A stretch of 64,000 nt of DNA, from assembly GCA_000310025.1 (NCBI GenBank), contig FN649748.1:741072-805071 (forward strand). Direction: 5' to 3'. The position numbers and the translations under genes are program-made. Position 1 is the stretch's first letter. Each line of letters begins with the position of its first letter. Of the stretch, positions 30,558 through 57,834 are shown in pieces. The DNA is from Ectocarpus siliculosus (taxonomy: Eukaryota > Sar > Phaeophyceae > Ectocarpales > Ectocarpaceae). The notes below the pieces were generated by a model. The model was not told the origin of the DNA and searched no databases. It saw only the letters and a list, made by a program, of their open reading frames with translations.

Positions 30558-33500
30558 TTACGAGGTACCACCCCCTTCACCACCGCCACCAGGTACATTG
30601 CCGCCACCAGTCTTAGCAACGGCCATGTCGCCATCCTCGTCGCGCCCTTTTCCCTCATTCTGGGTGCTCCTGCTCCCGTTGTTGTTACCAACACCTCTGC
30701 CCCCCTCTCCCCCCCCGGTGCCGGCATCTTGGGGCGCTGCCGAAGACAAAGAAGTGCGAGCTGGTCCTACTGAAGACGAAAACAACATCCGTCCCACCAA
30801 GGACAAGCGCCTGAACGGGCCCAGCACGCCGTCCGGACTGGAAGGAGAGAGAACCTCCGTGTCAGTCGGTGAGGTCCCGGTATTCGGTAGCAAGAAACCC
30901 TCAGCCTGAAGGAGACGGATCTGTCTCTGCTCCAGCTCGGCCGCGTTGACGATGCGACGGAACCCCTCCGTCTCCACGAAATCCGTCTGGAAGTTGGTCT
31001 ATTCTCGTTGATTTCAATGTGGTTGGAGCAGCGAAAGGGTCGGGCGTGGAGAAGGGGGACGAAAGGTTCTTATCTTGTCGTATGAAGTGAGAGCTAGAAA
31101 TGCCCCGAAGGCGGGTGTCGGTCGTGGACGTAAGCTGTACGAGACCGGTTGAAAACAAAATGTGAGGCGGCAGCGTGGGATGACAGACTGTGACCTACCG
31201 AGAGCAAGGGAAGGTTGGGGACTGTGGCTTGACAAACGCACTTCTCTTCCTTTCTGTCTTACCTCCATAACATCCAGAACCTCGGCCCTAGCGCGGTCGA
31301 AAATGTCGTACGCCGTCACATGCGTTGACAAAATCTCATCCCGGCACTCCCCGGATATGTTTACCTGTGAATGCATGAAACAAGTAGCAGAATCGCCCCA
31401 ACCAAGAAGCGAGGGAGCGCCTCATTGATTGCCGTGCACGTAGGGATGCTGAAGACGAGGGGGGGGTTGCTCGTGCATGTGTGAAGACATACGTGAAGCG
31501 TTTCGATGCCGAAAAAGAAAATCAGCACACGAAATACATTGTGCCTGACATCTCTCCACACCTGGTCGGGGGCTCCTTCCCTGATGTACTGGTCCACAAT
31601 GCGCATTGTCGCCGCCTGCAAGCGGAAACGCGGGGGGTGGGGGAATGGTCGAGGTGGGAAGTACGATGATGTGCTCGTGAGGGTACCTCTTCGTCAAACG
31701 TGCTTTCCAATGTATTTTCTGAACTTTCTCAAAGGCCCAACACGCTGCAGAGAGTGCAGGTTTCCAATAACGGAGATATGTCATTAGTAGGTACTTCTTC
31801 GTAGCAGGGATACAAGAACAGCCTCGCCCCCAAATTCAAGAATTTATTTCTGAAGCGGATGAAAAGATGCCGCAGTTGACAGTATCGTCTTCTATTTTCG
31901 CGAGCAAAGACATTGAATGGCCATTTGTTCTATTTATTCGATAATGCGGTATAGGTGCACCCGATGCGCGATTCTAGTACCCGCTGAATAATGGATATGT
32001 ATTCGATAAGCAATCCCGTCACCTCTTGAAATACATACAATCCAATGCGTATCGATATGTGATGCCAGTACACGCCGAATGTAACCAATAGTTTTGATAT
32101 GGAACTTCACCACCCGATGAAATAAACACCATGTACATCGATATGTGATTCCGGCAACTTGACATTGAAACACTCGATCGGTATGTATGTATCGATATGC
32201 TGTTGAAGGAACTTGCATACATCGGTAAGCGATTCCAACACCTTCTGAACAACCAACACGCCTATCCAATGGCCTATGCTCCAAGGTGTGGATTCCGGAC
32301 GTATCGCGGGGCCTCGGCATAGGACCATATTCTAAGCTATCTTCGTCGTTTGGTGGGTGGGCGAAATTTGACGAAACACGCATTCCCCACAGACCAAAAA
32401 GGAGCGTTCTATGAAGCTTCCTTGCCGATGCCGCTCTACCTGTCTGGCGAAGTACTCCATGATCTCCTCCCTGTCTAGGGAGTCGAGGTAAAAGTCCACC
32501 AGCTCATGGGCCACCTTAGCCTCGATGTATCTCCGAAACTCGACCCGAAGTTGCTCTACGGATAGCTGCTGCGCCAAATTGGCTTTAAGCTACACATTGG
32601 ACGGATGGATGGGGACGCGTAGACACAAGAACCCGGTATTTTGAAGCACGGAATGTGTTGATGATGATATCCTCGTTGATGGTCTCCTTCAGCGGAAATA
32701 GACGCGAACAAACCCGCTATTGTCTCTTCCGTGCTAACTGAACATTTGGGGGGTGGGAGTGTGAAATATGCCCTCCCTCGAGCTTCGACCTGGCAGAAAT
32801 GCGGTACTCTGCAGGCCTAGGAAAAGTAACGCAATGTCGATAGAATGAATGGGCGGGGGAAGAGTCGATAAGATTATGACGAATGCTGGGAACATGCTGC
32901 TATTACCGCAGTATCACGTCTCTTACGATCCAAACCACGAACAACTTACAGATGGCTATCCAAACACGAGTGATTCCGAAAGGTGTGTTTAGAACATACG
33001 GTACTGGTCATGAGCTAAGACAAAGCGACAAACCTAGCGGAACACGAGGGTGCTTCCGCCGATTCAAGGTAATAGAGTGTTGATGCAGACATGCGCTGGA
33101 ACAAACACCTGACAGACCAGGGCGAGAGCACTATGCGTGAATTGCGACACCACCATTGACAGACGCGCACACGCCGAACAGTACAATAGGAAAAAATAAA
33201 CAACGACCAACAACCAATGATTACTGAATAAACCACGCGTCGTGAGGGAAAGGTCCCCGAACCTGTGCGGGGGAAGGCATCTCCGAGAAGCCCTGGGTGA
33301 ACGAGTACAAGTACTCTGCGTTCCCTGTCAGCTTCATCTTGAACGGCTCCCCTATGGAACCCCATAGCAGCGTGTACGTCGACAACACCGGATCTGGGTC
33401 GTGGCATGAGTGCAGGGATGCGAAAGATAAGCCAAGACTATTCGCCACGACGGCATCGTGACCACCAGCAAGGGTTTTATCGCTAGCGCGTGTGTTGAAC

Positions 33501-36500
33501 GAGCACGAATACAAATTTCGGATCGGACGCCTACAGTGAATCGCTGCTCGTTTTCCTAAGGCCAGGCCGCAAACCAAGTGACTACCACAACCTCTCACGA
33601 ACGATGGTCACACAACAAAGAAGCACACAGCAACGTGGATAGCGACTCACACGCGATGGCCACTCTTCTGACGTAGCAGTGGTGGCCGTCGAGAATTATG
33701 GCCACCACGATCGCGTAGCTGAACAGGAGAATAGTCAGGCATGACAGGGTCCACTTCATCGCCTCATACTCGTTGAACTGCTTCCGGACCCACCTCAGCT
33801 GACGGGCACATACAAGCCTGTACTTGCAGCACCACCAGCAGAGAGAAGGACAGTCAATGAAAGACCGGGGTCCAAGGAACGTGTAGTGTACGTGATCTCC
33901 TTCACAGAGACCACTACGCGGACAATGACAACGACAAGGGCGTCGACGGCCCCTATCAACGACAGCCCGAAGAAAAAAAATACGGTGGAAAAGGGCAGGT
34001 ACAAGTTCCATTTCGACTCGACTTCTTGAAAAAGAGGGCCATCGTGGGAGCATAGACCTGTCCGTTCGTATCGCTGTTTTCAAATCCCAACCAACACACA
34101 TGAGGGCGAATTATCAGAAGCAAATCGACAACACGTATTCGCTGCGACTTGCCCTGTCCCACATTAAAACACTGTAGCAGAGTGCCCAGGCTTGTGAGCA
34201 CACTCGCTGGAGAAAGTAAGATCTGGACGGTGTCGGACTTCAATGACTATGGTGTTCACGGCGGATCGGAGCTCTGCGCTAGAAAGGGCGGCACCGTCCC
34301 ACGAAGTGGGGCAATGCTTTCATCATACCCCACGAAATGAGGGTCGCCTGCCCTTTTCTACAGTTTTCCTAAAACGCCCAGGGGCACTTTGGTGCCCATG
34401 GTTGACCCATGGTTGACCCATGGGAAGCCCATGGGCGGCTAATCAGAGCCATTCCAACCGGAACCAGTGTACTCCAAAAACAATTAGAATATCTGCGTCT
34501 GGAACGGGACATCATAGCCGCACGTAACCATGACGCTACCCTTAACCCCAACCCCAAGCCCACACGAGACGTGCTAGGTTGGCGCTGGTCGCTAAGTTCT
34601 AGGTTGATGTGGGTGGCTACGTTCTAGGTTGATATGCCGGTGGCGAAGTCCTAGGATGGGGTGCCCACTGTGGGTACTTCATTTTCATGAAGTGCCCATG
34701 GGTGACCCATAGTTGACCCATGGGTGTCCCATGGACGGTTTAGCAAAACTGTAGTTAGTGCGGGAGATTTTCGAAATGAAGAATAACTTTTTCTCGGGTA
34801 CGCAAGTTCCACTTTCGACTTTCTTCAAGGCCCACAAGGCAACGGGGCTTCTGCGTCGTTCTCGCCATTCGAAAGTACGCACGACAAGTACTTCAGAAGC
34901 AAGGCGAAGAACGCAAAAGCAACGACGTGAGCGACGACCCGGCTGGTGCACCATCCACTTTGTTTTCGCCGTAAGATGAACCCTGACGCCCAGAAAAGAT
35001 ATCACGACACCAGAAAAGATTGGACGACAATTCGCACGAATAGTCTACACACGAAGCAAACCAAAACAGTGATAACTGACTGCAAGTATACCGACCCAAT
35101 CTCTAGACCAAAAAAGAACACACCACCAGGTCCCCCTCCCCTCACCAGAGACACAATATCATGGAGAATCCAAAAGCGTCCATGCCCAGCACCACCCGCG
35201 TCGCGCCCGTCGAGGTGCCGCAAGAGTTGGCAGTTTCGTCGAAGAAGAAAAGGTCTGGGTCCAGGATGGCCAGCAGCAGGGGTATCAGACCGGTACTCGA
35301 TAGTAGCAGTACCTGGACCCTGAAGAGTCGAGTTGGACACGCCGGCACGGCGTCTGTTGACTTTCGAGAATAATATGCGCAGAATGACACGTACGTTTGT
35401 TTACTACGCGGTGGAACGCAGAAGCACAACAAAAACGCCCAGATGCCTACATGGGAAACACGTGGGGCCGACACTGCAGCTAACCAACAGCCCTTCGAAC
35501 CAGAAAAAGTTGAGGCTTGCTCCTCCTCAGAACCCTACACCACAGGCGATACCTGTGTTGAACTTACGTTGCGCACCACATGTTGTCGTCGTGCTTGATC
35601 AATATCCTCCACAACCTGTACACCCGAACGACGAACGACATAAAGTGCGCCATAAGTGTCGTCCACGAAATAGAGACCTTGGGTGTAAGAGAAGGCGAGG
35701 CGAGCAGGGCCGGGAGGGGCGGGAGAGGCGGGGAGAGTCAGGTACACGGAACGTTGGAAACGATGGCCGGGTAACGAACAGCGGGTGTAGTAGACAGAGA
35801 AAGAGACGGGTACACCCAGAATGTAATCGGTGATGATTACACCATGGAAGCCAAACTCCGGTACGCACGCGAGACGAAGGAGACACCCCCGGGCGGGCCG
35901 CACGAAAGATTCTACAGAGCAGCCGGCTCGAGACATGAGCAGAAACCAAGGCTAGGGCGACCTCAAAGCGGAGGCTGGAGTTGTTGGCGTACGACCTCCC
36001 GGCAAAACCTCCAACCGCGTGGTTCCGGAATATATCGCTTGGAAGTCGTTTCATTCTACAACCTCATCGGTCTTCCGCCGACTGTGGCATGTGCGTGTGC
36101 ACGCCATAATCCCGCCGACCGCCGGCCCTTTGACTTGATTCACTGACATGGTGAGATTGTTATGCGCTGTCGCTCAACAAAGGTCGATGATTAATTATAC
36201 TGTGGCCCTTGAAAACCGAGGCAAAGCGAAGGGGCCTAGAGTAACGCGATCGGTTCGTGTTTGCTGAACCCTTGCAGCACCACCTAATACCGTATTCTGT
36301 GACCGCGCGAAGTACACGTACCTCAAAATAGCAGTTGGCGAGGAAGTCGTCTTCGCTCCTCTGAATAAGGCCGTGGCCTACCGCCGCCGCAAATGTCCAT
36401 GCGAAACCCGCGAATGTCTGCGCGTTCAAGGATAGAGGAAACACGAGTGAGGAGAAGAAAAAGGCATCGAGAGCATGTGGGGGTAGATAGATGGACATGG

Positions 36501-37128
36501 AGAGCACTTGGGGGGAGTCACGTGGATCGAGGAGGCGGGGGAAAAGGAAAGGACAAGAGAGACGGGCAAGGGGGTATTGAGCAGTGGAGGGCAGAGACAG
36601 TAGCTAGATATTAGGTAGAGACAGAGAGAGAGATTGAGGTGGAGGCCGAGACGAAGACTGAGACGGCGAGCGAGAGAGAAATTGCGGAAACAGCGTACTG
36701 CGCGTCAACCAGGGCGGCACAGAGAAAGCAGGTTGGTTTTCTTCGAGAAACCGGCAAGGTGATGGCCCAACAGGACGATCAAAACTACCGGAAGCAACAA
36801 GTGTTGCCGTTTACAAAATTGAGTTCTCTATCGTCGAACAGAAACCGAAGAGTTTTTTTTACCAAAACGGTGAAGGTAACTGCCGAAAACGTCAACGACG
36901 TCCACAACTGCGACGGCAACAACGACGACGGCAGCGTTTGGTTTGTTTCGTTCGCGTGCTCACCATGATGATGACGATATCGACGTTCTTGGTGACGTAT
37001 GGTGGCCACTTCCGCCAACGAATTAGATGGATGCACACGCCCAGGGCAAAGGCTTGGAAGGTACACACTATGCCCAGCATGAGGTAATCGACAAAGGCCA
37101 AAGGCTCCCACGGTTCTTTGTCCGGCAT
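30558..37128 (-). CDS. 7TM-RGS protein, paralogue A (most diverged copy)
   Basis: Ten exons: 37128-36964, 36417-36322, 35677-35568, 35319-35146, 33817-33651, 33393-33263, 32589-32440, 31615-31562, 31364-31263, 30998-30558 (TAA). All phases agree, giving 529 residues. Exons 1-6 encode seven hydrophobic segments, including FVDYLMLGIVCTFQAFALG, KNVDIVII, TTLMAHFMSFVVRVYR, VLLLSSTGLIPLLLAIL and WTLSCLTILLFSYAIVVAI, separated by basic loops (IRWRKWPPY, WRILIKHDD, RQLRWVRKQFNEYE). Exons 7-10 encode an RGS domain: VEFRRYIEAKVAHELVDFYL, RIVDQYIREGAPDQ, VNISGECRDEIL, YDIFDRARAEVL, DFVETEGFRRIV. RGS domains speed GTP hydrolysis by G-alpha; the 7TM-RGS layout is that of plant RGS1. Versus B and C it starts MPDKEPW, has EYFARQ for GYFGRQ in the RGS domain, and ends in a Gly-rich tail about 30-50 residues longer. 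The intron between exons 4 and 5 carries a MITE; that between exons 7 and 8 carries a minisatellite. Confidence 0.85.
31935..32290. repeat. Imperfect minisatellite in an intron of RGS paralogue A
   Basis: Blocks built around TATCGATATGTGATTCC (variants TTCGATAATGCG, TTCGATAAGCAATCCC, ATCGGTAAGCGATTCC) recur at irregular spacings of about 40-85 bases. A 149-codon minus-strand open frame over it, with repeated GIAYR/GITYR peptides, is explained by the repeat. Confidence 0.55.
34360..34753. mobile_element. MITE with CCATGG repeats inside an RGS paralogue A intron
   Basis: The left end CTACAGTTTTCCTAAAACG and the reverse complement of the right end CTACAGTTTTGCTAAACCG match over about 26 bases with few differences. 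Inside both ends, the block TTGACCCATGG/GCCCATGGG is repeated several times. The element is about 394 bp with no protein and lies between the exons at 33817 and 35146. Confidence 0.65.
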
Positions 37129-40100
37129 GTTTCGTCACGTCTCTAGGAAGTCCGCGTCCTATTAGTACGTCGAACCGATGGCATGCCCTGAAATATCCCC
37201 GGTAAGGTCGGGGGGTGGGGGGATGGGGTCGAACTTACGCATCACTTGTTGCTTGTCTCTGTCAGGCCAGGCCCGGGGCCAGTTTTCGAAGTTCTGGGAT
37301 GGGAGGCCACACGAGGTACATCGTACCTCCCGCAACTCTCGGTGTCTCTAACGCTCTCTGGAGTACAAGTTCCTTGGTGCCGTCCTGTCAGAATTTCTGC
37401 CGAGGTTCCTATACGGACCCGGTGTGGGGGAGTGCGCTGTAAGGATAGCATGTTCTGTTGAGAGAAAGAGCAATCATCGAAGAAGAAAAATCCTAATAGT
37501 CTAATACCTGAGCAGAAACCCGGGGTGCTGCGAAGTCTTCGTGATACTGAAGTAGGACTGATTCCCTGGGGACTTTCGGAGCCTCCTCGGCATAGAGCAG
37601 ACCAATCTATGCCACAGGTATCCAGCTACGCACTCTTCGAATGTTCCGCTGGCTTTGGCAGGTTGTTTGAATGCAGATATTCGCGTGTTTCAGACTCTGT
37701 GCAGAGTACACACATGCGCCCTTATGCAGGGAACCGTTGTTGTTGCGAACACCATGGCAGATACCATTGTGTGGAGAGTTCGATACATTTGTTAGGCCCT
37801 TCCTCAACAAGGAGTCGACTCGATGACGTTGGAAAAAATGAGAACACTCCAGGAACCTTCGTATTGCTACAGAGTTGCACACCAAAGGTCTCAGAGGCTT
37901 GAGCTTGATTCATTTTCCAAACCTACTGTAGTCTAGAGCGTTCACCTACAGAAATTAAGAATCGAACGCTCTGGAACACTTTTTTTCCGTCTTGAGATTC
38001 AGGGGCTGAGACAAAGTACATAGAGGGCGGGACAAATATGGGTGGTTCCCCGCTTGCATCAACGATCTACTTCTTTTAGTTTGGTGATCCTTGGAAGTCC
38101 ACACCAGCGGATAAACAAAGCGAAACCACACGCTTAAACCCCGCAACAAAATGATTGATATGACATTTGTTCCGTCATGCAGCTTTAGAATCTACTGTAC
38201 TGTATGTACATGCGGCTTCAATATAGATTTGGTTGAAGGTCAGGCCGACGGTTTCCTCTTGGCATCCTCCCCTATTTTGCGGAGGTAGGTTCGAACTCCC
38301 GCTGACATTCCGAAGACAGACGCATCATACCAATCACTGAAAGGACGCATCGGTACATGTGTAGAGGAGGTACTGTACCGCCTTTTCGATTCGAGCCTGT
38401 GGACCGCATGCTTGTGTGTAGACTGGTGTACTACTCAACGAGGGTGTGTTCCCCGCACCATTCGCAACCACACTACACCCACATGCAACATGCACGTGTG
38501 CGATCGCCCTGTGCGATGGTCCGAGCAATGAGAGGGGTTGGGTGGGAGCCTGAGCTCCCGCAACCAACTTCGCGCTGTAGAAGGCATCGTTAAATGTCTG
38601 CAAAAAGTGCCCGGTTCTGTTGAGATCAGGTGTTCATGCGTGCGTCGGGAGTGACACACCTTTACGTCATTCGTACAGAGAGAGGGTGACCCGGCTCACA
38701 TGGATGTTGTTTGACTACGCTCACCGAGGTGGCATCCACTATTTTTCGAGGCCACAAAATGATTTTGTTCGTCTCCATGGTTTAAGACCGTCCAGGTCGC
38801 ATTTGGCATGCAGCGGACAGAGAGGGTGGTTGGCGTCCGAGTGACACAAATATGTGCGCCGCTAGAGCCAGGGTTTGAACGTGTTCGCAATAACTTCGGG
38901 CGTGCAGGTACCACTGCACCGCACACCTTGTAACAACGACGCATTCCAACACCATGGGTCGAGTTTGCCCCATGTCATATGTGCAGTCGCTTGCTCTTCT
39001 CGCACACACAAGATAGGCTACCACGCAAACTGCAGCGCATCGACTCCGACCACACAGGGAGTGAGACATATGCTGGCGTCATCCGAATACTTGCCTCTCT
39101 CTCGTTCGACCACCCTCAGGCACAGCCCGGTTCTCGTGCAGTTTATAAGAAGTCCTCCTCCCGTCTCTCTCCACCCGTTGGATCAGTGATCCAGAGTCCT
39201 GTCGCCAACAACAGCTCCTCGCACGGGGCCTGAGGCGTTACTGTTTTCGGGGACAAAGGCTACGGTAGTGTCGCACAACGATCGTTTTGCATCAGGGAAA
39301 TCGCCGGACCATATATATATATGTGGACGTCCGTCCGTCGTCGACACTCATCCCCTCAAGTAGGAAGATGAGCCCTTCTTCTATTCTTCTTTTCTGTGAC
39401 TGGCATTCACAACGTGCCCCGCCCACGCACACACGTTAACTACTTGCGCATGGATCATGAACAAGAGTCTACCGCGTGTAAAACTTTTGACATTTTTTCT
39501 TTCACTTCCGGACTGATGTAACTGTCGCTGGGGCGTCGTTTTTTTTTCGGTCATCGAGATGCAGTATCGCCCGAGAATCGAGGAGGTGCAGTGTGAGCGC
39601 GTCTCCCCGAAAACTGTGTAAGAGCAGCCCACAAACAGTTCGAGCAGATGAGCAGTTCCTTATTGCCGCCACGGCACAGTTTTTGCCTTCTACCTGCAGT
39701 AACGCGGGGAGAATTAGGGAAAAGCAACGCTCTCTATTAATTTAGGACACCTAACACGACTGTTAGTCGTCACCCGCCTCTGGATTCAAAATTGGGTAAT
39801 GTTCACTCGAGAGAGATTAACGATTAAGTAACCCGCAGTATGTCTTGAGGGAGCCAGAAAGCTTCCCAACGGAGTCGTGAGTTGGCATGAGTAACATGGC
39901 CATAGATAAGGCCATGGCGGCCACGGCCGGGGCGACAGTGAGTGGCGATCAAGGGCGTTTTGCCAACGAAGGCTGCAAGACCTTGCTTCAAATAATTCTA
40001 TCACCATCACATCACTTCTCACGACACAAAATACGAAGGCCATGTGATGCATGATTACCCGCTTCCTTCTTCTGTCGCTTCCCGCGTTGTCTTGCCAAAA

Positions 40101-40854: not shown

Positions 40855-43800
40855 TCATCTAGCCGCGTCCCCACCCGAAGACGAACAAGCGACGGCGTTT
40901 CCTACGGTTGATGGCGACGAAGGAGAGAACAACCTCCCTACCAACGGCAACCGTTTGAACGAGTCCAACAGGCGGCCCCGTGGAGAGAAAGAGGAGGGGG
41001 GCGCCCTCCGCCGAATAGGGGTCGGTGAAGCGCTCGGGACCAAGACGCCCTCCGCCCGAAAGAGGCGGATCTCGCGCTGCTCCAGCTCGGACGCGTCGAC
41101 GATTCGGCGGAACCCCTCCGTCTCGACGAAATCCCTCTGGAAGTTGGTCTGCACTCGTCGCCAGGTGGGTGGGAGGACAAGCCAGGACATGCAGAGGGGA
41201 ATATGGGTGTTTGTTAAGCTGGGTGCCTCCGAAGCAAGCGCAAGAATCTACTCTTGATATTCGTGTGTCGGAAAGCGTATTGTCCGGCATTGTTGGAGGC
41301 AAGAACAGATCTAAACGTAGAGGTTGAAGTGTTCAATGTGCAATTTTTGCAGAGGAGGGCGGCACTAGCGGGGTGCACGATACAGGTGTAACGGCCGTAA
41401 CAAATCTTCGCATCTGCGGGAAAGGTACGTAAAGGTGCGAGTGATCAGATACGGCTTTCAAAGCTCAACTGCTCCATACCACCACACGACTTTCAAAATT
41501 CAGTCGCGGCATACCCTTTTAGGGTGGGACGAAACTGACCGGTGCTTGCAAGGAAAGACAGACCTCGAAGAGGTACCTCCAACCCAACCCTGTTCGGCAA
41601 TGGCAGGCCTCTCGGCTGTGGTGCAATGCAGCTATGAGAGTCTGTCTGAGGGGTGTGATATCACTCGGACCTTTACCGCATTTCGCTAAAAAAACGAAAC
41701 GTTCCCCATACTTGGTACATCAACGATGTCGAGGTACGCACCAGGACTATCATTGTTTCCTCCTTGGCGCCCAAATCTGTAAGAGTAGCCTGTGGACGGC
41801 ATTGGGGCGTATCATTGTAAACATGACACGGGTGAAATTACAATGGTGGTAGGAAGGGACTATAGACTCAACGGCAGTCATGTTTGTTTCGTGTTACCTC
41901 CATAACGGCCAGAACCTCTGCTCTAGCGCGGTCGAAGATGTCGTAGGCCGTCACGTCCGTCGACAAAATCTCCTCCCGGCACTCCCCCGAAATGTTCACC
42001 TGCCATCCCAACACCGATGCGGTAGAACAAACACGAGAACCTGACAAACAGAACGCTCGTGGAGTAGTGGGGCGTCGTGCTGCTGGTTGACAGATGACAG
42101 GCATGTGTTCAGCGTTTTCGATATAATTTCGCTGGACGCCGTGCGAGTACTATCAGGACGCTGTGTTATTTCGTGCACGTGTATAGGTAAACAGCATCGC
42201 AACAAGCCGCGGTGCTGGGACGAAAAATAAACATTGGCGTCCAACACTTGTCCACACCTGATCAGGACTCCCTTCCCTGATGTACTGTTCCACGATTCGC
42301 ATCGTCGCCGCCTGTAGAACAATCAACCGGGGGGCAGAGTGGTGACATCTACTGTGAGGTATCTGTCAAGGAAATTCGTAGATGAGTCCTTTCACTCCCT
42401 TTACGGGAAAAAAACAGCGGCAGCATTAGACGAGTGTTTCAACCTCCTCCTGGGCAATTACCAGTAGTTCCATGTTGGCGTACCATCGATACTTTATTTT
42501 TTCTTACGACGCTACTGAAAGAAAGCATGGACGGTATGCCAATATCACCATGTACCACGGCCCGTTGAGGCGCAACAACTTCCACAGAAGAAGCAAAGCG
42601 CCAAACTAAAACGAACAAGTCGGGTTTCAACTTGTGCCTACCCGCAAGCAGAGCCAGTCACGGGGGGCTAGCCCTTCCTACGACTACTGCTTACGAAACC
42701 AGCATTCAATCGGCGAGCAACAGTGATGCCTAGATTCGATGCCATCGGCGTGCTACAGGTCAAATTACCTCACGCCAACACACTACGTATTGCATCTGTT
42801 GGCCCACGGACGTGAGAAGCAGCGTATCACAAGCCACGAGGGTTCTATCTCTTCCAGAGCTGTGAAGCGTTTCACTTTCTAAGGACGACTCAATGTGAAG
42901 CTCCATAACAACAAATTGTGGCTCATGTTTAGCACCCCGTGATTCGAAACGTGACTGTGGTAAGACATACGAGCACCTAGCGATAGCCTCTGTGAAAACA
43001 AGGACAAACATCAAAGGCTTATCGGTACGTCAGTGGGCAGGTGGGCGGCAGAACGAGATGAAAACAGGTGTGCGGCAGAAAGAGATCACAAACTTTCAAA
43101 ACCGAGCCAGTCTTCTCACAACTTCAAGGGTCGGCCACAAAAAAAGAAACCCTTGCTTTGAAGCACCCCCGCTACTGCCGCTTCTTCACCTGTCTGCCGA
43201 AATAACCCTTGATCTCCTCCCTGTCTAATGAGTCGAGGTAAAAGTCCACCAGCTCTTGGGCCACCTTTGTCTCGATGTATCTCCGAAACTCGACCCGAAG
43301 TTGCTCTACGGACAGCTGCTCTGCCAAGCTAGCCTTAAGCTGAAATGGTGTGCGTGTGTGATTGCGAACCCAATAGCAAAAAAAACAAAATATGGTGAAA
43401 CATGATACATGTTGTTGTGAAACCACGGAAATTTGTGACAGTTGGTGTCGGTAGAATGACCAACTCCGATGATGCCTCTTTAGTGGGTACTATAGGCTTT
43501 GAATTGTTTTTTGGGGGGGAGTTCGTGTGGACCCCTCCCTCCCTCCCTCCCTCCTTCCCTCCCTCCCTCCCTCCTTCCCTCCCTCCCTCAATACAGTGCT
43601 GCACGAAACCTGTGGCATTCGTTAGGCCTGGGATAAAAGAGTGAAATACTGAAGGGTTGTACATAAATCGGCCGGAGTGCCCTCAGAAATAAGCTCGACA
43701 ACTGCCTTTCGGTTGATTGATGGAGTCCTACCATCCAAACCGCAAATTGCTATCAAGCCACCTTAGGAGTACGAGCACGAAATCTTTCGCAAGGGCAAAA

Positions 43801-45146
43801 GTGTGGACGTCGACGCTTATTAGTGCTCCGCTTGCTCTGCTCTTCCTGCCCGCGTGTGAAAAGGATCCCGGCTGTAGTCCGCGTGCTCAACCCAAGCGGG
43901 TCACGTCTACCGCGCCGGAAGAACGACTGCCAGTCGCGGGCGGATCATGCTCACAGGCGCAGACGCAGCAAGTCCAACCCGTTACAGACATGTCACCCGT
44001 GGGTCGCCAAAGCCGCGAACGCACAATCATTTGCTGACAAGCACATGCAACAGCAGCAACAACAATGACCCAGCAAACAATTTCCTGAAGGCGTGCTAAA
44101 CAGGCGTGAGCGACAGCCCCCGAACCTGCGCGGGCGAAGGCATCTCCGAGAATCCCTTTGTGAAGGACCACAGGTAGCCCTCGTCCCCCGTAAACTTCTT
44201 CACCACGGGCTCCCCTACGGAGCCCCATAGCAGCGTGTAAGTCGACAGCACCGGGTCTGGATCGTGTCATGGCCGGAGGAAAGGGGTAAGGGACGCAAGC
44301 GACAAAGGGGCTGTCACCATGACTTCCTCGCGGTCTTTTGACGCTCTTCATCGCTGATACATTTCTCAATGGGGACGACGGCTTCAGGTCATTGCATCGT
44401 ACCCCATGATCCTGAAGCCAGGCAGCGAACCGAATGCCCACCACAACGATCTCGAACAACGGTCACCGTTAGCAGCAGAAGGACATAGCAGCACACATCA
44501 GTAGCAACACAAGCGGTTTACCACCACGGTGACATCGTGATCGCTACTGCCTTCATCGCTAACGTCTGTATTGGGCGAGGAAGATTCAATCAGGCCAGGC
44601 ACCTTCAATTAACCGCCGTCCCATGTTCCTAGACCACAACCTCACGAACAGTAGTCGCCCTCGAAAGAAGCACACGGCAGCAAAAATCAACAGGAACACG
44701 AAGGCAGACCGCGACTCACACACAATGGCCACTCTTCTGACGAGCACATGTTGATTGTTGAGGATTATGGCAACCACGGCTGCGTAGCTGAACAGGAGCA
44801 GAGTCAGGCATGACAGGGTCCACTTCATGGCCTCGTACTCGTTGAACTGCTTCCGGACCCACCTCAGCTGACGGGTGCACACGAACCTGTTTCGGCACAG
44901 CATCGACGGAATGGGACACATGAAGCCTGTAGATGGAACTCCAAGAACAACAAACAATTAAACTCCAACTCCAACAACGACAATGGCAACACTACGAAGA
45001 CGACCATCACCACCATCACTACCACCACCACCACCAACAACAACATCCCAATAGGACACATGAGGCCTGTAGGTGGAGCTCCAAGAACAACAAAAAATAA
45101 ACTCCAACTTCAACAACACAATGGCAACACTACGGAGACAACCATC

Positions 45147-45178
<32 letters not shown>

Positions 45179-47420
45179 CAACAACAACATCCCGAACACC
45201 AACAACGACCAAGACAACCACCACCACACCACCACCACCACCGACAACAACAACAACACGCCCTCAAATCTGAAGCACACCCTCCTCCGCCTTACTTGAC
45301 ATCACCGCAAAGCCACCCTTTGCGCCTCACCAAAGATAGCAGATGAGGTAGAACCCCAGGGCGTTCATCGCCAGGACCACGTTCCTCGAATCCGTCGTTG
45401 TGTTGCAAGAATTGACAGTCTCGTCGAAGAAATGGAGATCTGGGACAAGCACGGCCGCCAGCAGAGGGCCCAGGCTGATACTCGACATCACCATTACCTG
45501 GTACCTGACGGGTGGGGGGTGGATAGAGCGTTGCGCATCATGCACCATATTTGGACATATCTTGGACCGGACCATGGGCCGCTTCCGTCGCCGTAATCCG
45601 GTCCATGAAATTGTCCACGGCGGCCCATGGTGTTCCGAAGAGGCTCATCGGACGCTCCAAGTCGTGCCACTAACCGGACCGTGGGACGTATTGGAACCCC
45701 AAAGTGGACTGGTGTCATGGCACGGGCCATGACCCGGTTCAATGTCCGGCTCGTGACATATTCCAAGAAGTACCTCAAACGGGACGTGTGCCGAACCGCG
45801 GAACGGACCATGAATCGTTCCCGGACCCCGGGGCATGGGGACGATACGGCACTTCATGGGCGCCGAAAAGGCGATACACACACAAGGGCGAACGCCGAAA
45901 ACGACCACAACCCTCTGGGGGGCAACTCACTTTGCGGGCCACATGCTGTCGTCGTGCTTGATCAAAATCCTCCACATCCGGTAAACCCGAACGGCGAACG
46001 ACATGATGTGCACTGCTAGCGTCGACCACGACAAGGTTGTCTGCAATGCAAGCGACGGCGTTACGGATGGGAGGGGAGGGTAAGATGAAGACACGGACAG
46101 GAAGGGTGACATGACGATTCACTCCCGATTGTTTGTGTAAATCTCCTGCAGGGCCATCGATCTCGACTTTTAACGCTAACATGTCACGCCGTGATCGGCA
46201 ACTAAGTGGAAAGAACAATAAGAAGGGCGTATCCATAGTACGGTGTCTCCTCCCTGGTGTTCAGCACACTCAGCATCCCAATACCACCCGTGCGGAGCCC
46301 CAAGGGGGGGGGGGCAGAAACTCACATCAATGTAGCAGATGGCCAGGAAGTCCCCTTCGTTCCGAGGGATTAGGCCGCTCTGCAGAGCAGACGCAAACGT
46401 CCACGCGAAACCGGCGAGCGTCTACACGTAGATACAAGGGAAGAGGGTGGATACAGCGATACAGTGAGCGCCGGGGGGGGGCAGATATATCGAAGGAGAA
46501 AGAGGGAGAAATGCGTACACAAACGAGAGAGAGAGGTGGGGGGGGGAAGGGAGAGAGACACACGGCGGAGAGTGAGACAAAGAGAAAGGGGTCGAGAGAG
46601 GAGAAGCACTGACCACCCTTTTCACTGTCACGCTTCAAGCAAGCACAGACCTCAACAGCTCCTACGTCAAGACGAACCAGCAAGGGAACACCCTAGCGGC
46701 AGCGGCACTGCTTGCGGTCGTACTTCACAACAGTGAGCCCCCCCCACCAGCATGATGAGATCCGCGCAAGTCGTAGCGCACGGCTGTGTAGATGATCAGA
46801 GAACACCAAAACAACCGACAATGTATGACGAGCGGTTAGGCGACTGCATCCAATGTCTTCATAGGACCACTTGAGCGAGGAGCTCCAGTCACATGTTCGC
46901 AAGGCAGACATCGCCGCCGCCGCCGTACCACCAGCAGCTGCAGCAGCAGCAGCAACAACACCACCACCACCACCACCACCACCACCATCACCACCGCCAA
47001 CACCAACACCAACACCAACACCAACATATCAAAATCTTCTTCAAAACCTTCAAAAATGTTTTGAAATCAACACCACCACCAACACCAACACCACCAACAA
47101 CAACACCAACAACAACAACACCAACAACCAACACCACCACCAAAAATAACACCACCAACAGCACCAGCACCAACACCAACACCAACAACAACAACAACAA
47201 CCACGACAACAACAACAACAATGAAACGCGTGCGTTGCATCATGTTCCGACTCACCATGATGATGACGATGTCGACGTTCTTGGTGACGTATGGTGGCCA
47301 CTTCCGCCAACGAATTAGATGGATGCACACGCCCAGGGCGAAGGCTTGGAACGTGCCCACCATCCCCAGCATGAGGTAATCGACAAAGGCCAAAGGCTCC
47401 CACGGTTCTTCGTCCGACAT
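40855..47420 (-). CDS. 7TM-RGS protein, paralogue B
   Basis: Ten exons: 47420-47256, 46421-46326, 46040-45931, 45504-45331, 44886-44720, 44256-44126, 43339-43190, 42311-42258, 41999-41898, 41148-40855 (TGA), 480 residues. Intron positions and phases equal those of paralogues A and C. Predicted membrane helices: about 11-34, 48-70, 88-107, 127-145, 165-183, 204-224, 230-252. The RGS domain covers about 265-410 (VEFRRYIETKVAQELVDFYL, YDIFDRARAEVLAVME, DFVETEGFRRIVDASELEQ). It would sit in a membrane and act as a GTPase activator for G-alpha; an extracellular or luminal ligand is unknown. The tail is uncertain: an optional 40-base intron (40941-40902, gtaggg...ccgtag) would replace the stop at 40855 with a frame reading ETPSLVRLRVGTRLDEIVEV and ending at 40500. 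Intron 1 and the intron between exons 4 and 5 are full of CAA/CCA repeats. Confidence 0.87.
43537..43589. repeat. (CCCT)n microsatellite
   Basis: A run of CCCT with occasional CCTT units, inside the paralogue B intron between the exons at 43339 and 44126. Confidence 0.95.
44915..45265. repeat. Tandem duplication of about 135 bp plus (CAA/CCA)n
   Basis: GGGACACATGAAGCCTGTAG... GCAACACTACGAAGACGACC at 44915-45008 is repeated as AGGACACATGAGGCCTGTAG... GCAACACTACGGAGACAACC at 45054-45145. Each copy is followed by ACC and AAC triplet runs. It lies in the intron before paralogue B exon 5. Paralogue C keeps a single related copy near 55512-55560. Confidence 0.75.
45550..45850. repeat. Cluster of GGACCATGGGCC/GGTCCATG palindromes
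   Basis: Motifs such as GGACCATGGGCC, CGGTCCATG, GGCCCATGG, GGGCCATGACC and GGACCATGAATCG recur in both orientations in the paralogue B intron between exons at 45504 and 45931. Paralogue C lacks the insert at the same position, so it is a recent insertion. Terminal repeats were not resolved. Confidence 0.45.
46920..47225. repeat. (CAN)n-rich tract in intron 1 of RGS paralogue B
   Basis: Long runs of CAG, CAA, CAC/CCA triplets, ending about 30 bases from the exon 1 donor. Open frames giving poly-Gln, His, Thr or Pro across it are artefacts. A shorter CAA run sits at the same place in paralogue C (57605-57625). Confidence 0.9.
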
Positions 47421-47457
47421 CCTTCTTCACGTCGCTACGAAACCCGAGCTTTTTAGC

Positions 47458-49640: not shown

Positions 49641-51540
49641 TCTCATGTACACTATACTTCTGCTGTGCATGTAGACTACAGTAATAATGCAATTGCGATG
49701 TGACAACCGCAGAGTATTCCCACAAAATCCGGTGGCCACGATGTGGCGACGAAATGGTGATTCTTGTACATGAACGAAATTGACGTTTGTACGACTACTG
49801 CTGTACCAGGGATACTTTTTCTTCTTCTGCCTGCTGAGAAAGGTACATGCAGTAGGTGGGCTAGGCCGGATGTATGTTACAGCTCAGGTCCATCCTTCGA
49901 TTAGTAGACTACCCGTCTGTCAAGGTTCTTGAGTGAGGGTGTTTTGATGCTGGAATACTGCGTCGGCCGGTTGTAGATGGATCAAACACACGAATATCCC
50001 TACTACACCGTTGCCGATATGTAGACTATAGATTGCGAAAGATATACAGATGTTACCCCCACTATCGATATCGACCTGCTTGAAGCCCGATTACTCCACG
50101 ACGAAGAGGATGCCACGGCAGTACATACAATAGTCAGATGATGCATTTTGGGGACGCTCTCGACGGGACGGTTCGAAAGCCGTCAAGTTGTTAGCACCGT
50201 TCGCGCTTTGAAAATCGCTCCTCCAGGCGGTGTGTTTCATAAAACACCGAAAACACCGATGTTTCGACGGGTGACCGGACGTGGATCACCCTGTTTCAAG
50301 GATTCATTCCGTGAAGACATACTGTATACGTCGTGCTCAATCCATTCGCCATCAACCGGGCAATCGCATTGATACGATCTTCATGATAAGATCAGGCAGG
50401 AGTTGACTAGAGAGTCCAAGGCAGAGGGGACTCCGTCCCTCACCAAACGATCAGGCCACGTGCATACCAAACTTCAGAGGCATACCGACCGCTGGGTACA
50501 CAAACAACTCATCTTCAGCAGGTCGTTATCGATTTTCAGCGGGATGCTATTTTGCTTGCCAACGCGCAAGAGAGAATAACGCGTTGCCAAGAACTTCCGC
50601 CTTCAACACGCCCCCCGATGAGCAACAAACATGCTGGGTTTTCGATTGTCAGCACGAGCTATCGCAACGTTTCTCGCTCTCACCCATCTCTTCTTGACAT
50701 CAAAAACGACCCCCGAGGCAAAAGGTTTCTGTTTTTCTTAAACGTCATGGCCGTGGCGGCGATGAGGGCTAACCAAACAAGCTTGATCTGAAGGCGGAAA
50801 GGCCTTCCTTCAAATCGCCGTGTGCACAGTAATACCAATCTAAGTGAAATGTCCATATAATCTCAACTTTCTTCTCGTTCCCACAAACGCATACACAGTA
50901 CCTCTGTTACAGTACCTCTGTTCTACACGAAACACCACCCAATACATACATTTCTACCATGAGGTGTGGTTTCATACCTACAAACGGGGGCATACTAACG
51001 CAGGACGGCCGTCGAGACGTCAGCAAATATCAACAAGATACACAAAACAACACAAAACTTACAGCACAATTCCCCCAATCAAAACCCAACCCCACACCTT
51101 CAGTCGACACATGCGCTATGGAGTCGCCTCGGATGCGCCGCCACCTCGCTAGTGTAACAACTTACCTTTGAACACTCGTCCTGGTGTGTGTGAACCATTC
51201 AGTGCATCGGCCCCAACCCCCGGCCTAGAGAACATCCACATTAATTTGTCTTCGTACTAAAAATTTGCCACCGATCGAAGACCTTTGCGGCATCATCAGC
51301 GGTAGCAGGGATACCTCCCACTCGACCTGCGGTAAGAACGGAACCCTCCCGAAATGTATGTGGTATGAGCTTGTACCGCCCCTCCCATACAGCTCCCGTC
51401 GGTGCCGTTAGGCTCAATGCCCAGATATCGCCGTCCCTTCTTATTCGCAACCTTCTTTCGAACGATCAAGCCACCGGAAGGAGGCGCCGAGACCCTTAGT
51501 GGACTGAGCGCAGACACTGTCGGCCCGGATATCGACAGCG

Positions 51541-54500
51541 TCATGCAGCCCCAAACTCCTCCTCACGATGACCCACACTATTTCTTCTAGCCGCGACCTC
51601 GCCACTTCCTGCACCCGGAGTAGACGACCTAGAGACAGCGTGTGCCACGGCTGAGGGCGACGAAAAAGAAAACAATCTCCCCACCAAGGGTAAGCGTCTG
51701 CACGAGTCCAGCAGGCGGCCCCGTGGAGAGAAAATGGAGGGGGGCGCCGCCAGCCGAACCGGGGTCGTTGACGCGCTCGGGACCAAGACGCCCTCCGCCC
51801 GCAGGAGGCGCATCTGTCGCTGCTCCAGCTCGGACGCGTCGACGATTCGGCGGAACCCCTCCGTCTCGATGAAATCCCTCTGGAAGTTGGTCTACGCTCG
51901 CCGCCATGGTGGTTGGAGGGGGCAAGAGAGAGGGGACGGGGCGAGGGAAACGGGTGTTCTTGTTTCTCAGCTGGGTGCTTTTGAAGGAAGCGTAAGAATC
52001 ACTCTGATAAGCGCGTGTCGAAACTATTTCTTCGACAGTGAGGTGGCAGTTTTGAGTTTTGGATTCGTGTCGAGGAGGGTGCTCCTATAGGCATCCATGA
52101 TGCCGGTAAAACCTTTGCGGCTGGCAAAAGTACGGTAAAAGAGTGCGAGTGATCGTCCGCCACCCAGCCCGACTTTCAAAGATCGATTGCTCCACAGCCA
52201 AGAGGACACGAAACCTACACGCGCGAAGAAAACTCTCCTCTACACCCTTTCAACAAATGCAAACTTGTTGCCGCCGATTTGCAGGCCTCTTGCTTCTTGT
52301 GTAATCGACCCAAAACGTCGCGGGAGATCGTTCGCACGCTTGCGGTACATTGCCTTGTTCTGGGAAACCCCAGACTTTCGCCAGACTTGGTAAATCGACA
52401 GCAACGATCGGCACCACTTGTCTTTCCTTACACCAAAATCAGCAAGATAAGCCTACGGGCCGCATTGGCGCGCACATCACGGTGTTCACGTGATACGGGT
52501 GAGTTTTGGATTGCAAAACTGGCAAGTGGAAGAGGCTTGGAGGCTCAACGACGGTCACTTTTCTCCCGTGTTACCTCCATAACGGCCAGAACCTCTGCTC
52601 TAGCGCGGTCGAAGATGTCGTAGGCCGTCACGTCCGTCGACAAAATCTCCTCCCGGCACTCCCCCGAAATGTTTACCTGCCAACCCGACACCAACGCGGC
52701 AGAATAGACCAAACGGAGGGAATGAGAACTACACGTTTTGTGCAATAGTGTGGCGTCTTGCTGCTGCAGGTGTGCCTGCAGGTAATTGTTCAGTATTCAC
52801 GATCACTTCGCTGGACTTGCTGTTACCACCAGGACGGCGGGTGTGTGTCACAGCATAGGTAAGTCACAGGGGATACAATACCCCAGTGACAACATTTTGG
52901 TGCCGTGTCTGAGATACTCTAGTGATCGCACGCTGTGGTAAGCTGGTTTTCCGTAGCGGACGTCATCATTTACAATGAATTGGCTGCGGCGCTGGGAAAA
53001 AGACAGTGACATCGGACGCTTGTCCGCACCTGATCAGGACTCCCTTCCCTGATGTACTGTTCCACAATGCGCATCGTCGCCGCCTGTAGAACAATCCGAC
53101 GGGGGGGGGGGGGAGCGTCCCCATCTATGGTGAGCTATCTGTAAGGGCATATCTTGGGTAGGTCGTTTCACTCCGTCCGAGGAACAAGACTCAGAGGCCA
53201 TGGGTTTGGGAGACGCGTGTTTCTTTCCCCCGTGAGGCTCCTCCGCGAGTCATCGCCACTGCCATCACAAACCGTTCAACCTTCTCTGTGCCGTCGGAGA
53301 GACACTCTCTCCAGAACCTTGAAAGGTACCTCCTATTCCCTTGTTGGCTTACCACTGGCCGTCCACTTTTTCCGTGACAACGGACTACGCGTTCAGAACG
53401 TGTGAAAAGCCGGACGCCCTTGTGGATCAACGTGCAATGAAGAAGCAGCACTGCCGAGCTATGTATGTCGAAGAAGGCAACTTACGAGCAGAGTCAGGGA
53501 CGGGGATTGACTAGTCCTCCTGAGGCTAAGGTTACTGCTTTCACAGCCGACCCACAATTGGTTCCTTTCGTATCGTTTAGATTCAACGTCATCATCGGCG
53601 TGCTTTAGGTCTAACGTAACCATGCCGACGTTACACCCGCTGAACCAACCATTGAGAACCTACACATTTACATGCAGGTCCACAGAACGATGGAAGTGTT
53701 TCGTGTTCTCATGGCTTCGTGATGCATTGCTACGGCACACGCCGAAACTCCACAAACACCTCATATGTAGCTCACGTTCACCGTCCAATCTTTCGGAATT
53801 TCGATGTGGAGTAGGACGTAGCGACTACGGTAGTCTCTGAAAAAAAAAAAACGTCAAGGGTCCTGGGTAGCGTGTTGGTGGGTGAGTGACTCGATCAACG
53901 GCACATGGAAGTCGCGTGCAATACACAACTTGGGGACAAGCCTTCGTTAAGCATCCCTGCTACTGCCGCTTCTTCACCTGTCTGCCGAAATAGCCCTTGA
54001 TCTCCTCCCTGTCTAGCGAGTCGAGGTAAAAGTCCACCAGCTCTTGGGCCACCATAGTCTCGACGTACTTCCGAAACTCGACGCGAAGTTGCTGCACGGA
54101 CAGTTGCTCCGCCAAGCTAGCCTTGAGCTGTAAAGGTGCATGTGTGATAGTTAGTTCGAGACACGGGGCGCCAAACAAAGTAAGGTAGATTCACTAGCAT
54201 GCCACGAGTTGATGAAAACGCCGGTTGTTTGCCACCGGTAGTGGCAGTATAAGTGAACAACTCCGATGAGGCCTGCATTGTGCGTACAATACAAGAGGGC
54301 TTGTACTTGGGGGGGGGGGGGGGTGTTCGTGAGAATCTCTCTCTCTCTCTTTGTCCTCCCCTCTGCGTCATCCGTGAAAGTCGGGAGGGAAATACAGAAT
54401 TAATATCGAATAGACGGGGAGTGAAACGAAGAAAATAAACTTGACAATCATTATTGAGCTGCTGGACGGAGGTCTACCATGCAAACCACGCACATCCTGC

Positions 54501-57244
54501 AAAATCCCATCCAGCATGAGCACCACATACGCTTTGGGAGTAATGACGTCTTGGCGTTTGGTGCTTACTTCTCCCTTGGCTGCCTGAGAATGGAAATATG
54601 TCCACATCTGTATTCCGCATGCTCAAACCAAACGGATCATCACGCTACCGGGCCCGCCCATCGACTGTCGGGCGTAAATGACGTACTCGGGCGCTCTCAA
54701 AAACACCTGCCAGCTACATATTCAAGCCAAATATCCAAGCCAAACTCGGTACAGATATGTCGCGCGTGGCTCGTCAAGCCGCGATCACACAATCCTCTGC
54801 GGACAAGCACACGCAACAACAACGATCCAGCGGCAACAACAAAAGTAACAGCAACAACAACGACCAACAACAACCCAGACCAACCAAAACAAGATCATTG
54901 CTGGAGTCACGAGCTGCGAGCGGCGGTTCCCGAACCTGCGCGGGCGAAGGCATCTCCGAGAAGCCCTTAGTGAACGAGTACAGGTACTCCGTGTCCCCCG
55001 CCAGCTTCCTCTTGATTGGCTCCCCTATGGAGCCCCACAGTAGCGTGTACGTCGTCAGCACCGGGTCTGGATCGTGTCACAACGGGAGGTAGGGGCAGAG
55101 GGATGTAACCGATAAGCGGTTTGCCGCCGCGATGGCATCGTGACCGCCACTGCCTTTATCGCTAACGTGGGTGTTGGACGAGCAAGATTCTTTCAGGTCT
55201 GGCACCTTCAACTAATCGCCTCCCCATGTTCCTAAGCCACAACCTCACCAACGATAGTCACCCTCAAAGGAAGGAAACGGCAGCAAAAATCATCAGGAAC
55301 GCGAAGGGAGACAGCGACTCACACACGATGGCCACTCTTCTGACGTAAACGTGTTGGTTGTTGAGGACTATGGCCACCACGGCCGCGTAGCTGAATAGGA
55401 GCAAAGTCAGGCATGACAGGGTCCACTTCATGGCCTCGTACTCGTTGAACTGCTTCCGGACCCACCTCAGCTGACGGGCGCACACAAACCTGATTCGGTA
55501 CAGCATCGATGGAATAGGACATAGGAGGCCTGTTGATGAAACTCCAAGAACAACAAAGGCCTACGGCAAGGATGGCGACGACATCTACCGCCACCCCCAA
55601 CGCAACCAAACACCCTCAAACGTGAAGCTATATACCCTCCACCGCTGTATTTTCTCCACCGCCATCCTCATCATCATCACAAAGTCCTTCCTTCGCCTCA
55701 CCAAAGATAGCAGATGGCGTAGAACCCCAGGGCGTTCATCGCCAGGACCACGTTCCTCGAATCCGTCGTTGTGTTGCAAGAATTGACAGTCTCGTCGAAG
55801 AAATGGAGATCTGGGAAAATAATGGCCGCCAACAGAGGACCCAGGCTGATACTCGACATCAGCATTACCTGGTACCTGACGGGTGGGGGACGTGGACATC
55901 GCTTAGCGACGTCTACTGACTACCAGGACATCAAACGTCATGCATTAAAAAAAAGATCGTGAATGTTTCACGCAACTTGTTTTTGCCTTCCCTCGAAGTT
56001 TCGCACGGCAGAGTACAAACAGAACACAAAAACTTTTCAAAGCTGATGAGTCTCTGAAACAGCCTCGACAATTGTGGTGTTATCTAAGATAACAGCGTGC
56101 GCACTTTACATCGACCCGGTGCGCCGATGGTAGACGCCGATAGAGACGTGACACACAGCCTCCTGGTTATGGAAGGTCGAACAGCGTGACTAGTTTGACC
56201 TCAACTCAGTCGCCCCCGGAATTATGAAAACAAAAAAACAGTGTGTTGGGACCGTACTCTAGGTCTAGGACCAACTCGGTGAACAGTTCGGCAAGGCCTC
56301 TTGATAGTCGAAAGCGATGAGGTTTGCTCCGCAGAAAAAATGATTAGAGTACGAACGAAAATCCCGGAACCGACCACAACACCAACCGGGAATGCTCACT
56401 TTGCTGGCCACATGTGGTCGTCGTGCTTGATCAAAATCCTCCACATCCGGTAAACCCGAACGGCAAACGACATCATGTGCGCTAGTAGTGTCGACCACGA
56501 AAAGATTACCTTGGGGATGATGAAAAACAGTGAGGGGGGGGGGGGGGAGGGTAAGACAAACACACGAACGCGAAGTGGTCACACAAAGGTGATGCCTGGA
56601 GCAGCAGATGGAGAGAAAAGGGCACACCAAAGCGCTGAGAGGGAGAAGGGAAGCCGACAGAGCGGAATGTGGAGTGCAAACAACGACATGGAACCCGCTT
56701 GAAAGAGCCGCCGATCTCCTCTCTACACACGAAACGAGGACACATGTACCACGCAGCGCCGCCCGAGACAAGCCGCAAGGACGTCGTGTCGCGCTAAAAC
56801 AAACGCAACGCTTCACATTAAAGGGAGGGTCCGACCTAACGTTCGACAGTCACACGGAACTGGAACATGCTCATACAGTCCCGCACCCTTGCCAGCCACT
56901 AGGTTCTATGTGACAATAGAGCGCGATCCCGCGGAAGTGGCTCCGATCCATGTCACCCTTCATCCGCCACCTGGCACAAGTGACCGCCGCCACCACCTCT
57001 CCACCCCGTACACCGCCCGTTTGACATTCACTCCCAGTTTTGCGAGAGTCGATCTGGTGCCGTGCCGCCTGCGCCTAAGTTCGACACCTGAAACGCTAAC
57101 ATGTCACCACGAAAATCAGCAAAAAACCCAGAGAGCAGGACGAAGGGGTGCATGCAACAGTACGGTGTATCCAACTCGTCCAAAGCGCACCGATGTGTCG
57201 CCGCCCAATATCCTCAGTGATGACCCACGACGGATAGAGAGAGA

Positions 57245-57280
<36 letters not shown>

Positions 57281-57834
57281 TGGAGAGAGAGAGATAGAGG
57301 CTCACCTCAAAGTAGCAGTTGGCGAGGAAGTCGCCTTCACTCCTCTCGATGATGCCGGTCTCTAGAGCAGACGCAAAGGTCCACGCGAAACCCGCGAGCG
57401 TCTGGACGAAAATACAAGGGACGAGAGGAGAGAGAAAAGACAACGGAAAAGTCAGCGCCTTGGGGGGGAGGGGTTTCGAAGGAGGAGGTAGTGGGAGAAG
57501 GGCGTAGAGGAAAGAAAGAGAGAGAGAGAGCGGATAGGTAACTTCGAGGCACTTTTTTAATTCTGCTTCAAGCACAGACAAGACAGAGCTAACCGCCTGA
57601 GAGAGACAACAACAGCAACAACAAGGACAACGATCAAAAAGGCGTGCGTTGCATCATATTCCTACCCACCATGATGATGACGATATCGACGTTCTTGGTG
57701 ACGTATGGTGGCCACTTCCGCCACCGAATTAGATGGATGCACACCCCCAGGGCAAAGGCTTGGAACGCACCCACCATTCCCAGCATGACGTAATCGACAA
57801 AGGTTAAAGGCTCCCACGGCTCTTCGTCCGACAT
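51541..57834 (-). CDS. 7TM-RGS protein, paralogue C
   Basis: Ten exons: 57834-57670, 57401-57306, 56509-56400, 55875-55702, 55489-55323, 55066-54936, 54127-53978, 53083-53030, 52676-52575, 51891-51541 (TGA), 499 residues. The first exon starts MSDEEPWEPL, as in B. Core motifs: KNVDIVII, HMMSFAVRVYRMWRILIKHD, FFDETVNSCNTTTDSRNVVL, RQLRWVRKQFNEYEAMKW, YTLLWGSIGEP, VEFRKYVETMVAQELVDFYL, GECREEIL, YDIFDRARAEVLAVME, DFIETEGFRRIVDASELEQ. Exon 4 is nearly identical to B, differing mainly in the helix after PLLAA (IIF for VLV). Same predicted topology and RGS role as its neighbours. The exon 2 donor (57305) is followed at once by a roughly 60-base CT run on the coding strand. The C-terminal tail after LPLVGRLFS is not conserved with A, and its reading frame is the least certain part. 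Confidence 0.87.
57236..57298. repeat. (GA)n microsatellite beside a splice donor
   Basis: GA run broken by single GATA and GATG units, seven bases from the exon 2 donor of RGS paralogue C. On the transcript it is a polypyrimidine (CU)n tract immediately downstream of the 5' splice site. Confidence 0.95.

Follow-up and report, generated by a model that had tools for sequence, protein, structure and literature searches.

A tandem array of genes for predicted seven-transmembrane RGS proteins in Ectocarpus siliculosus

Three similar genes stand in a row on one strand of an Ectocarpus siliculosus contig. What do they encode, how far does their repetition reach, and what could such a set of proteins do? 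To answer this, we analyzed a stretch of 64,000 nucleotides (C23:741072-805071, hereafter the window) and searched the whole genome (189.5 Mb, 492 contigs).

Gene models and the extent of the array

Exon models of the three genes, A, B and C, were obtained by aligning open stretches among the three and inspecting exon edges. Positions in the following list are those of the window.

30558-37128, minus strand: gene A, 529 amino acids, spliced model with GT-AG introns
Gene A exons 1-10, minus strand: 36964-37128, 36322-36417, 35568-35677, 35146-35319, 33651-33817, 33263-33393, 32440-32589, 31562-31615, 31263-31364, 30558-30998
33263-37128, minus strand: exons 1-6 of gene A, encoding a short N-terminus, seven hydrophobic segments and a linker (hydropathy)
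30558-32589, minus strand: exons 7-10 of gene A, encoding the RGS domain (residues 292-398) and a variable tail (PF00615, E 3.6e-11)
40855-47420, minus strand: gene B, 480 amino acids, spliced model with GT-AG introns
Gene B exons 1-10, minus strand: 47256-47420, 46326-46421, 45931-46040, 45331-45504, 44720-44886, 44126-44256, 43190-43339, 42258-42311, 41898-41999, 40855-41148
44126-47420, minus strand: exons 1-6 of gene B, encoding a short N-terminus, seven hydrophobic segments and a linker (hydropathy)
40855-43339, minus strand: exons 7-10 of gene B, encoding the RGS domain (residues 290-398) and a variable tail (PF00615, E 5e-11)
51541-57834, minus strand: gene C, 499 amino acids, spliced model with GT-AG introns
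Gene C exons 1-10, minus strand: 57670-57834, 57306-57401, 56400-56509, 55702-55875, 55323-55489, 54936-55066, 53978-54127, 53030-53083, 52575-52676, 51541-51891
54936-57834, minus strand: exons 1-6 of gene C, encoding a short N-terminus, seven hydrophobic segments and a linker (hydropathy)
51541-54127, minus strand: exons 7-10 of gene C, encoding the RGS domain (residues 288-398) and a variable tail (PF00615, E 2.4e-11)

All nine introns of each gene start with GT and end with AG in the spliced models, the intron phases (0,0,2,2,1,0,0,0,0) are identical in A, B and C, and the spliced frames are open. The first exons repeat at exactly 10,292 and 10,414 bases, and the proteins can be aligned over their full length, with the C-terminal tail as the most divergent part. 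The preliminary description of the window had placed three minus-strand genes here; their place and strand were right, the outer limits of 30558 and 57834 were exact, and the spliced models bore out the shared ten exons, the phases, both periods and the end-to-end protein alignment. With a coding identity of 82-91% and a dN/dS of 0.26-0.28 (up to residue 405), the likeness among A, B and C goes beyond chance. In blastn comparisons, out of roughly 8 kb per gene pair, exons included, only 1.4, 1.7 and 2.9 kb were alignable, and introns and spacers are therefore far more diverged than the exons.

Other features of the window are a long CAA/CAC-rich tract inside intron 1 of gene B (46956-47221), a (GA)68 microsatellite (22527-22662) and, in the left flank of the array, a plus-strand frame with an EDR2_C domain (18038-19048, E 5.5e-7). 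No tRNA genes or Rfam families were reported within the window.

Using protein B as query, the genome search scored 89 out of 105 first-look candidates and returned 91 matches at the exon level. They identify at least eight copies on C23 (A-H), all on the minus strand between 771.6 and 896.8 kb (about 125 kb), and at least three on C8 (I, J and K).

C23:812289-819220, minus strand: copy D, from exon modelling
C23:826102-837391, minus strand: copy E, from exon modelling
C23:847576-850556, minus strand: copy F, exons 1-6
C23:855637-861760, minus strand: copy G, from exon modelling
C23:886578-896822, minus strand: copy H, from exon modelling
C8:1638764-1642020, minus strand: copy I, exons 1-5
C8:1669230-1674837, minus strand: copy J, exons 1-9
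C8:1705523-1713335, plus strand: copy K, exons 4-10
C15, exons from 4434208 to 4442396, plus strand: distant paralog, from exon matches

The earlier term "triplication" was thus wrong in extent, as the window cuts the array, which continues past its right edge; the proposed local expansion of the family was borne out and is larger than claimed (at least eight, plus three, plus one copies). Every exon edge of D-K fitted a GT-AG site in register with A-C, and the spacing of copies is uneven outside the window. Weak single matches to protein B were also detected on C9, C489 and at C15:4438572.

Seven of the C23 copies, including A, B and C, are complete and open, and copy J carries an in-frame stop within exon 4. 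Copies F, I, J and K are incomplete, and each adjoins a run of N (3.8-12 kb):

C23:840152-847341: N run beside copy F
C8:1634343-1638108, 1656364-1668401 and 1693587-1704978: N runs beside the incomplete copies of C8

These runs could hold the missing exons, and the copy count is therefore a lower bound. For the same reason we dropped a real truncation of F, I, J and K, with F as a copy reduced to its seven-transmembrane (7TM) part.

Haem peroxidase frames on the plus strand (PF00141, three of three scanned) interrupt the array between copies C and D (C23:805706-809628, L024), and intron 2 of copy E holds a plus-strand reverse-transcriptase frame (C23:833916-836060, L026 and L027; RVT_1, E 8.9e-13, scanned in part). 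On C15, the second exon of the distant paralog is present twice in near-identical form around a 100-base N run (L043, 4130-4700), probably an assembly artefact. A single scan of viral contigs for relatives gave 27 pattern matches, none of them confirmed.

The helix part, the RGS domain and G-alpha genes of the same genome

Hydropathy, at a threshold of 1.1 set by us, delimits seven hydrophobic segments in each of A, B and C. Five are strong (Kyte-Doolittle means 1.76-2.67), and the third and seventh are weaker (1.19-1.43); from hydropathy alone, seven membrane segments are likely, not certain. The preliminary description had seven membrane segments joined to an RGS domain, and this holds in spliced A, B and C as seven hydropathy segments, two of them weak, in one frame with a near-complete Pfam RGS domain. 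The loops joining segment 1 to 2, 3 to 4 and 5 to 6 abound in Arg and Lys. Arg/Lys-rich loops face the cytoplasm according to the positive-inside rule, and the RGS domain would therefore be cytoplasmic. Ahead of segment 1, the N-terminus comprises about 13 residues. An in-frame stop lies two codons upstream of the ATG in A, B and C, so that no large ectodomain is visible in these three.

The class C GPCR profile 7tm_3 (PF00003) matched one of eight helix parts (B, A, C, D, E, G, H and I; E 5.8e-6). In a Pfam scan of longer models from seven copies (D, E, F, G, H, I and K), the full-length model of copy E aligned with residues 17-238 to profile positions 11-237 of 251 (E 3.4e-5), at 24.1 bits and thus below the cut-off of 33.5. 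In A, B and C, Pfam gave no 7tm_3 match at E up to 1 (0 of 3), and comparison of the helix part with solved structures, by single sequence and by profile, returned no relative at E up to 10. Weak Pfam matches to IL10, DUF3392, Abhydrolase_9_N, NdhL, CoV_E, DUF4271, bCoV_NS6, DUF3953 and FA_desaturase were read as chance, being under the cut-off wherever one is given.

Among the marks of class C receptors are a cysteine pair, two basic residues that close helix 3, an acidic residue where helix 6 reaches the cytoplasm and, within helix 7, a PK motif (PMC3727952, excerpt). In the array, Cys84 (before segment 3) is invariant in 10 of 10 copies bearing the site and Cys157 (in the predicted second outer loop) in 11 of 11, a putative pair that fits the class C feature. 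Arg105 and the Glu of an FNE motif, both invariant across the eight aligned helix parts, may represent the basic helix-3 and acidic helix-6 features. The PK motif is absent from helix 7, where the alignment reads YPxLTT or YPxLST. The helix part looks class C-like, its membership being unproven: it shares with class C GPCRs the 7tm_3 match of copy E, the cysteine pair and possibly the basic residues following helix 3, whereas a large N-terminal ligand-binding domain (in A, B and C) and the PK motif are missing and the profile match is confined to one of eight helix parts, below the cut-off. GABA-B-like diatom candidates lacking a large N-terminal domain exist, and for the class C-like candidates of diatoms the RGS domain is given as complete in one of four diatoms (PMC3727952, excerpt). 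A C-terminal RGS domain as found in the array is not reported for diatom class C proteins in section 9 of that paper.

These features bear on the possibility that the proteins are true GPCRs, i.e., exchange factors that turn a G protein on and have an RGS domain of their own as a built-in off switch. The profile match in copy E, the invariant cysteines, the conserved basic residues after helix 3 and the FNE motif before helix 6 would agree with such receptors, but the stop just ahead of the ATG, which leaves no large ligand-binding ectodomain, and a helix 7 without PK motif speak against them. Sequence alone cannot tell such receptors from regulators; we regard true GPCRs as unlikely.

As recommended for checking, the translated models were searched with PF00615, and exons 7-10 matched in all of A, B and C (43.5-44.5 bits against a cut-off of 23.9; E 2.4e-11 to 5e-11). 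Copies D, E, G, H and K also exceeded the cut-off, giving eight of the eight RGS-bearing copies scanned (J was outside the scan). The closest solved structures by sequence are animal RGS16, 18, 5, 2, 8, 4 and others, with a best E of 8.5e-6 (RGS16).

For the G-alpha contact we used what we take to be the contact positions in RGS4 numbering, mapped onto the array through alignments to solved RGS domains. The equivalents of E87 and N128 are retained in 9 of 9 copies. N88 is replaced by Leu (9 of 9), S164 by Phe (8 of 8) and R167 by Asp, Glu or Gly (8 of 8), and the D163 equivalent varies (6 Asn, 1 Glu, 1 Asp). By this mapping, the contact positions are in part non-canonical, and since the N88, S164 and R167 equivalents are altered, GAP activity of the array domains is not assured. 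Compared with animal R4-type RGS proteins (RGS4, 16, 18), the array thus shares the domain by sequence and the E87 and N128 equivalents, but differs at these three positions and in the fusion to membrane helices.

A search for G-alpha genes in the same genome, also suggested beforehand, gave 22 exon-level matches to PF00503, which most plausibly represent at least five loci (C1, C3, C7, C19, C479), plus single weak matches on C2 and C11. DVGGQ is present in all five G-alpha exons read. Switch I reads TTG at C1, TSG at C3 and C479 and SSG at C19 (it was not seen at C7). Serine thus stands in three of the four stretches read where G-alpha-i has Thr182, and the altered positions of the array RGS are presumably those lining the Thr182 contact. 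Thr182 of G-alpha-i1 is described as central to RGS contact (PMC3386157, excerpt). Changes on both sides of one RGS/G-alpha contact would be suggestive only.

Mosaic exons and constraint among the copies

In a maximum-likelihood tree of 11 proteins, in which copy I has residues in fewer than half of the retained columns, I, J and K are separate (100/100) and A, B, C and H fall together (100/98), with weaker pairs D-E (81/94) and F-G (93/91). Identity compared exon by exon is mosaic: F and G resemble C in exon 5 and E in exons 2-4 (maximum chi-square, permutation p = 0.0002 each). Five of six triples tested for mosaicism gave p < 0.05 (0.0002, 0.0002, 0.0142, 0.0246 and 0.0040) and A with H and B gave p = 0.099; the triples were picked after the exon-identity table had been seen, no correction for multiple testing was applied to the p values, and F is closely related to G. 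This pattern would most simply be due to gene conversion or unequal exchange.

Variability was calculated from the seven complete C23 copies of the 11, excluding the incomplete F, I, J and K. Mean pairwise amino acid difference was highest in the predicted outer loops (0.394, 45 sites), followed by the helices (0.313, 150 sites), the inner loops (0.200, 45 sites) and the RGS domain (0.173, 117 sites). Outer loops differ from inner loops (p = 0.0005) and from the RGS domain (p = 5e-5), and helices from inner loops (p = 0.010); these p values are rough, as we drew the segment borders on gene A from hydropathy and the sites share ancestry. What does not suit a simple outside-in picture is that inner loop 2 (0.314) is almost as variable as outer loop 1 (0.325), and that helix 3 (0.514) is the most variable segment of all. 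None of the segments has a mean dN/dS above 1 among the seven copies (highest 0.68, helix 6), and positive selection on the outer face is thus unsupported.

The preliminary description had seen room for specialization toward ligands or G-alpha. Divergence of the copies on the ligand side fits the data, as the outer loops are the most variable region. Specialization among copies toward G-alpha is not favoured, because among the four pooled regions variability is lowest in the RGS domain, though a few RGS contact positions do differ among copies.

The same measurements weigh on the idea that the helix part is a mere membrane anchor, or that the RGS domain lacks GAP activity and acts as a scaffold. 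In all copies bearing them, three contact positions depart from the canonical residue, and the RGS domain alone can complement Aspergillus oryzae class VI receptors (PMC10794492, excerpt). However, purifying selection acts on the helix part as well (dN/dS 0.32-0.34 among A, B and C, with 0.10-0.17 in the RGS part), the variation of the helix part is structured by face, and the E87 and N128 equivalents are retained. We consider a plain anchor or scaffold quite improbable.

A proposed role and its relation to known systems

We think it likely that the array is an expanding family of membrane-held, probably ligand-tuned RGS regulators of shared G-alpha, built by duplication and gene conversion. 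The window would then be the left end of a tandem array whose proteins have a very short N-terminus, seven class C GPCR-like helices and a C-terminal RGS domain. Each protein would keep its RGS GAP membrane-bound and close to a shared G-alpha, whose GTP hydrolysis it would accelerate, and GAP output may be tuned by a membrane cue or a small ligand that acts on the helix bundle and the divergent outer face. In this way the copies could route different inputs to one conserved output, while the array would enlarge by tandem duplication and gene conversion would reshuffle it exon-wise. For this scheme we infer topology, GAP activity, ligand sensing, expression and choice of G-alpha alike.

To our knowledge, the receptors of the volatile gamete attractants of brown algae are not known. 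A chemoreceptor-like, lineage-specific array, e.g., for these attractants, in which many divergent outer faces feed a single conserved RGS output, gene conversion shuffles the exons, and signalling works by relaxation of GAP activity and not by G-protein activation, would be a long shot. Extremely improbable is an array consisting mainly of decaying duplicates with few working copies: the in-frame stop in copy J and the missing exons of F, I, J and K could be taken that way, but all four adjoin N runs with room for those exons, and seven C23 copies are complete and open with dN/dS well under 1 in every segment.

The reading as membrane-held regulators draws on plants. In Arabidopsis AtRGS1, a cytoplasmic RGS domain comes after seven membrane segments (PMC3386157 and PMC3718340, excerpts), and plant RGS restrains a self-activating G-alpha (PMC3386157, excerpt). 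By analogy with plant RGS, the array proteins are most likely membrane-held, ligand-tuned GAPs. The likeness to plant RGS1 drawn in the preliminary description is one of described architecture, which is a separate matter from common descent of the helix part, whose only relevant family match is to class C 7tm_3; the array differs from AtRGS1 in being a tandem multigene family in a stramenopile. Fungal class VI GPCRs (GprK, GprR) also carry an RGS domain after a seven-helix domain (PMC13308352 and PMC10794492, excerpts) and are likewise alike in described architecture; A. oryzae has three class VI genes (PMC10794492, excerpt), against at least 11 array copies here. The architecture (7TM plus RGS) is therefore a known one, described from plants and fungi, and occurs here as a larger array than first noted with a class C-like helix part. 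Our literature search found no paper on a 7TM-RGS array in brown algae, within a coverage that mostly leaves out subscription journals; a GRK has been reported from Ectocarpus, with no mention of a 7TM-RGS architecture (PMC3307776, excerpt).

Conserved output with divergent input is the pattern expected of an expanding sensor family. The array offers natural variants for asking whether 7TM-RGS proteins sense ligands via GAP control, it supplies candidate sensors for a lineage with independently evolved multicellularity, and with at least five G-alphas in the same genome, coupling is directly testable.

Two further observations were made in the genome. On C14, adjacent open frames match RGS (E 3.3e-6) and PAS_9 (E 5.9e-18) and include an NCRFLQ stretch (L002, 1489-2732), which we take to be typical of LOV photosensors; these frames are possibly an RGS-LOV photoreceptor. 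Additionally, the EsV-1-7 motif (PF19114) is abundant genome-wide, with 150 of 150 scored candidates over the cut-off (of 880 in total), and is often repeated within one frame. The EsV-1-7 family is described as expanded in brown algae, with the motif patchy elsewhere (PMC7457493, excerpt).
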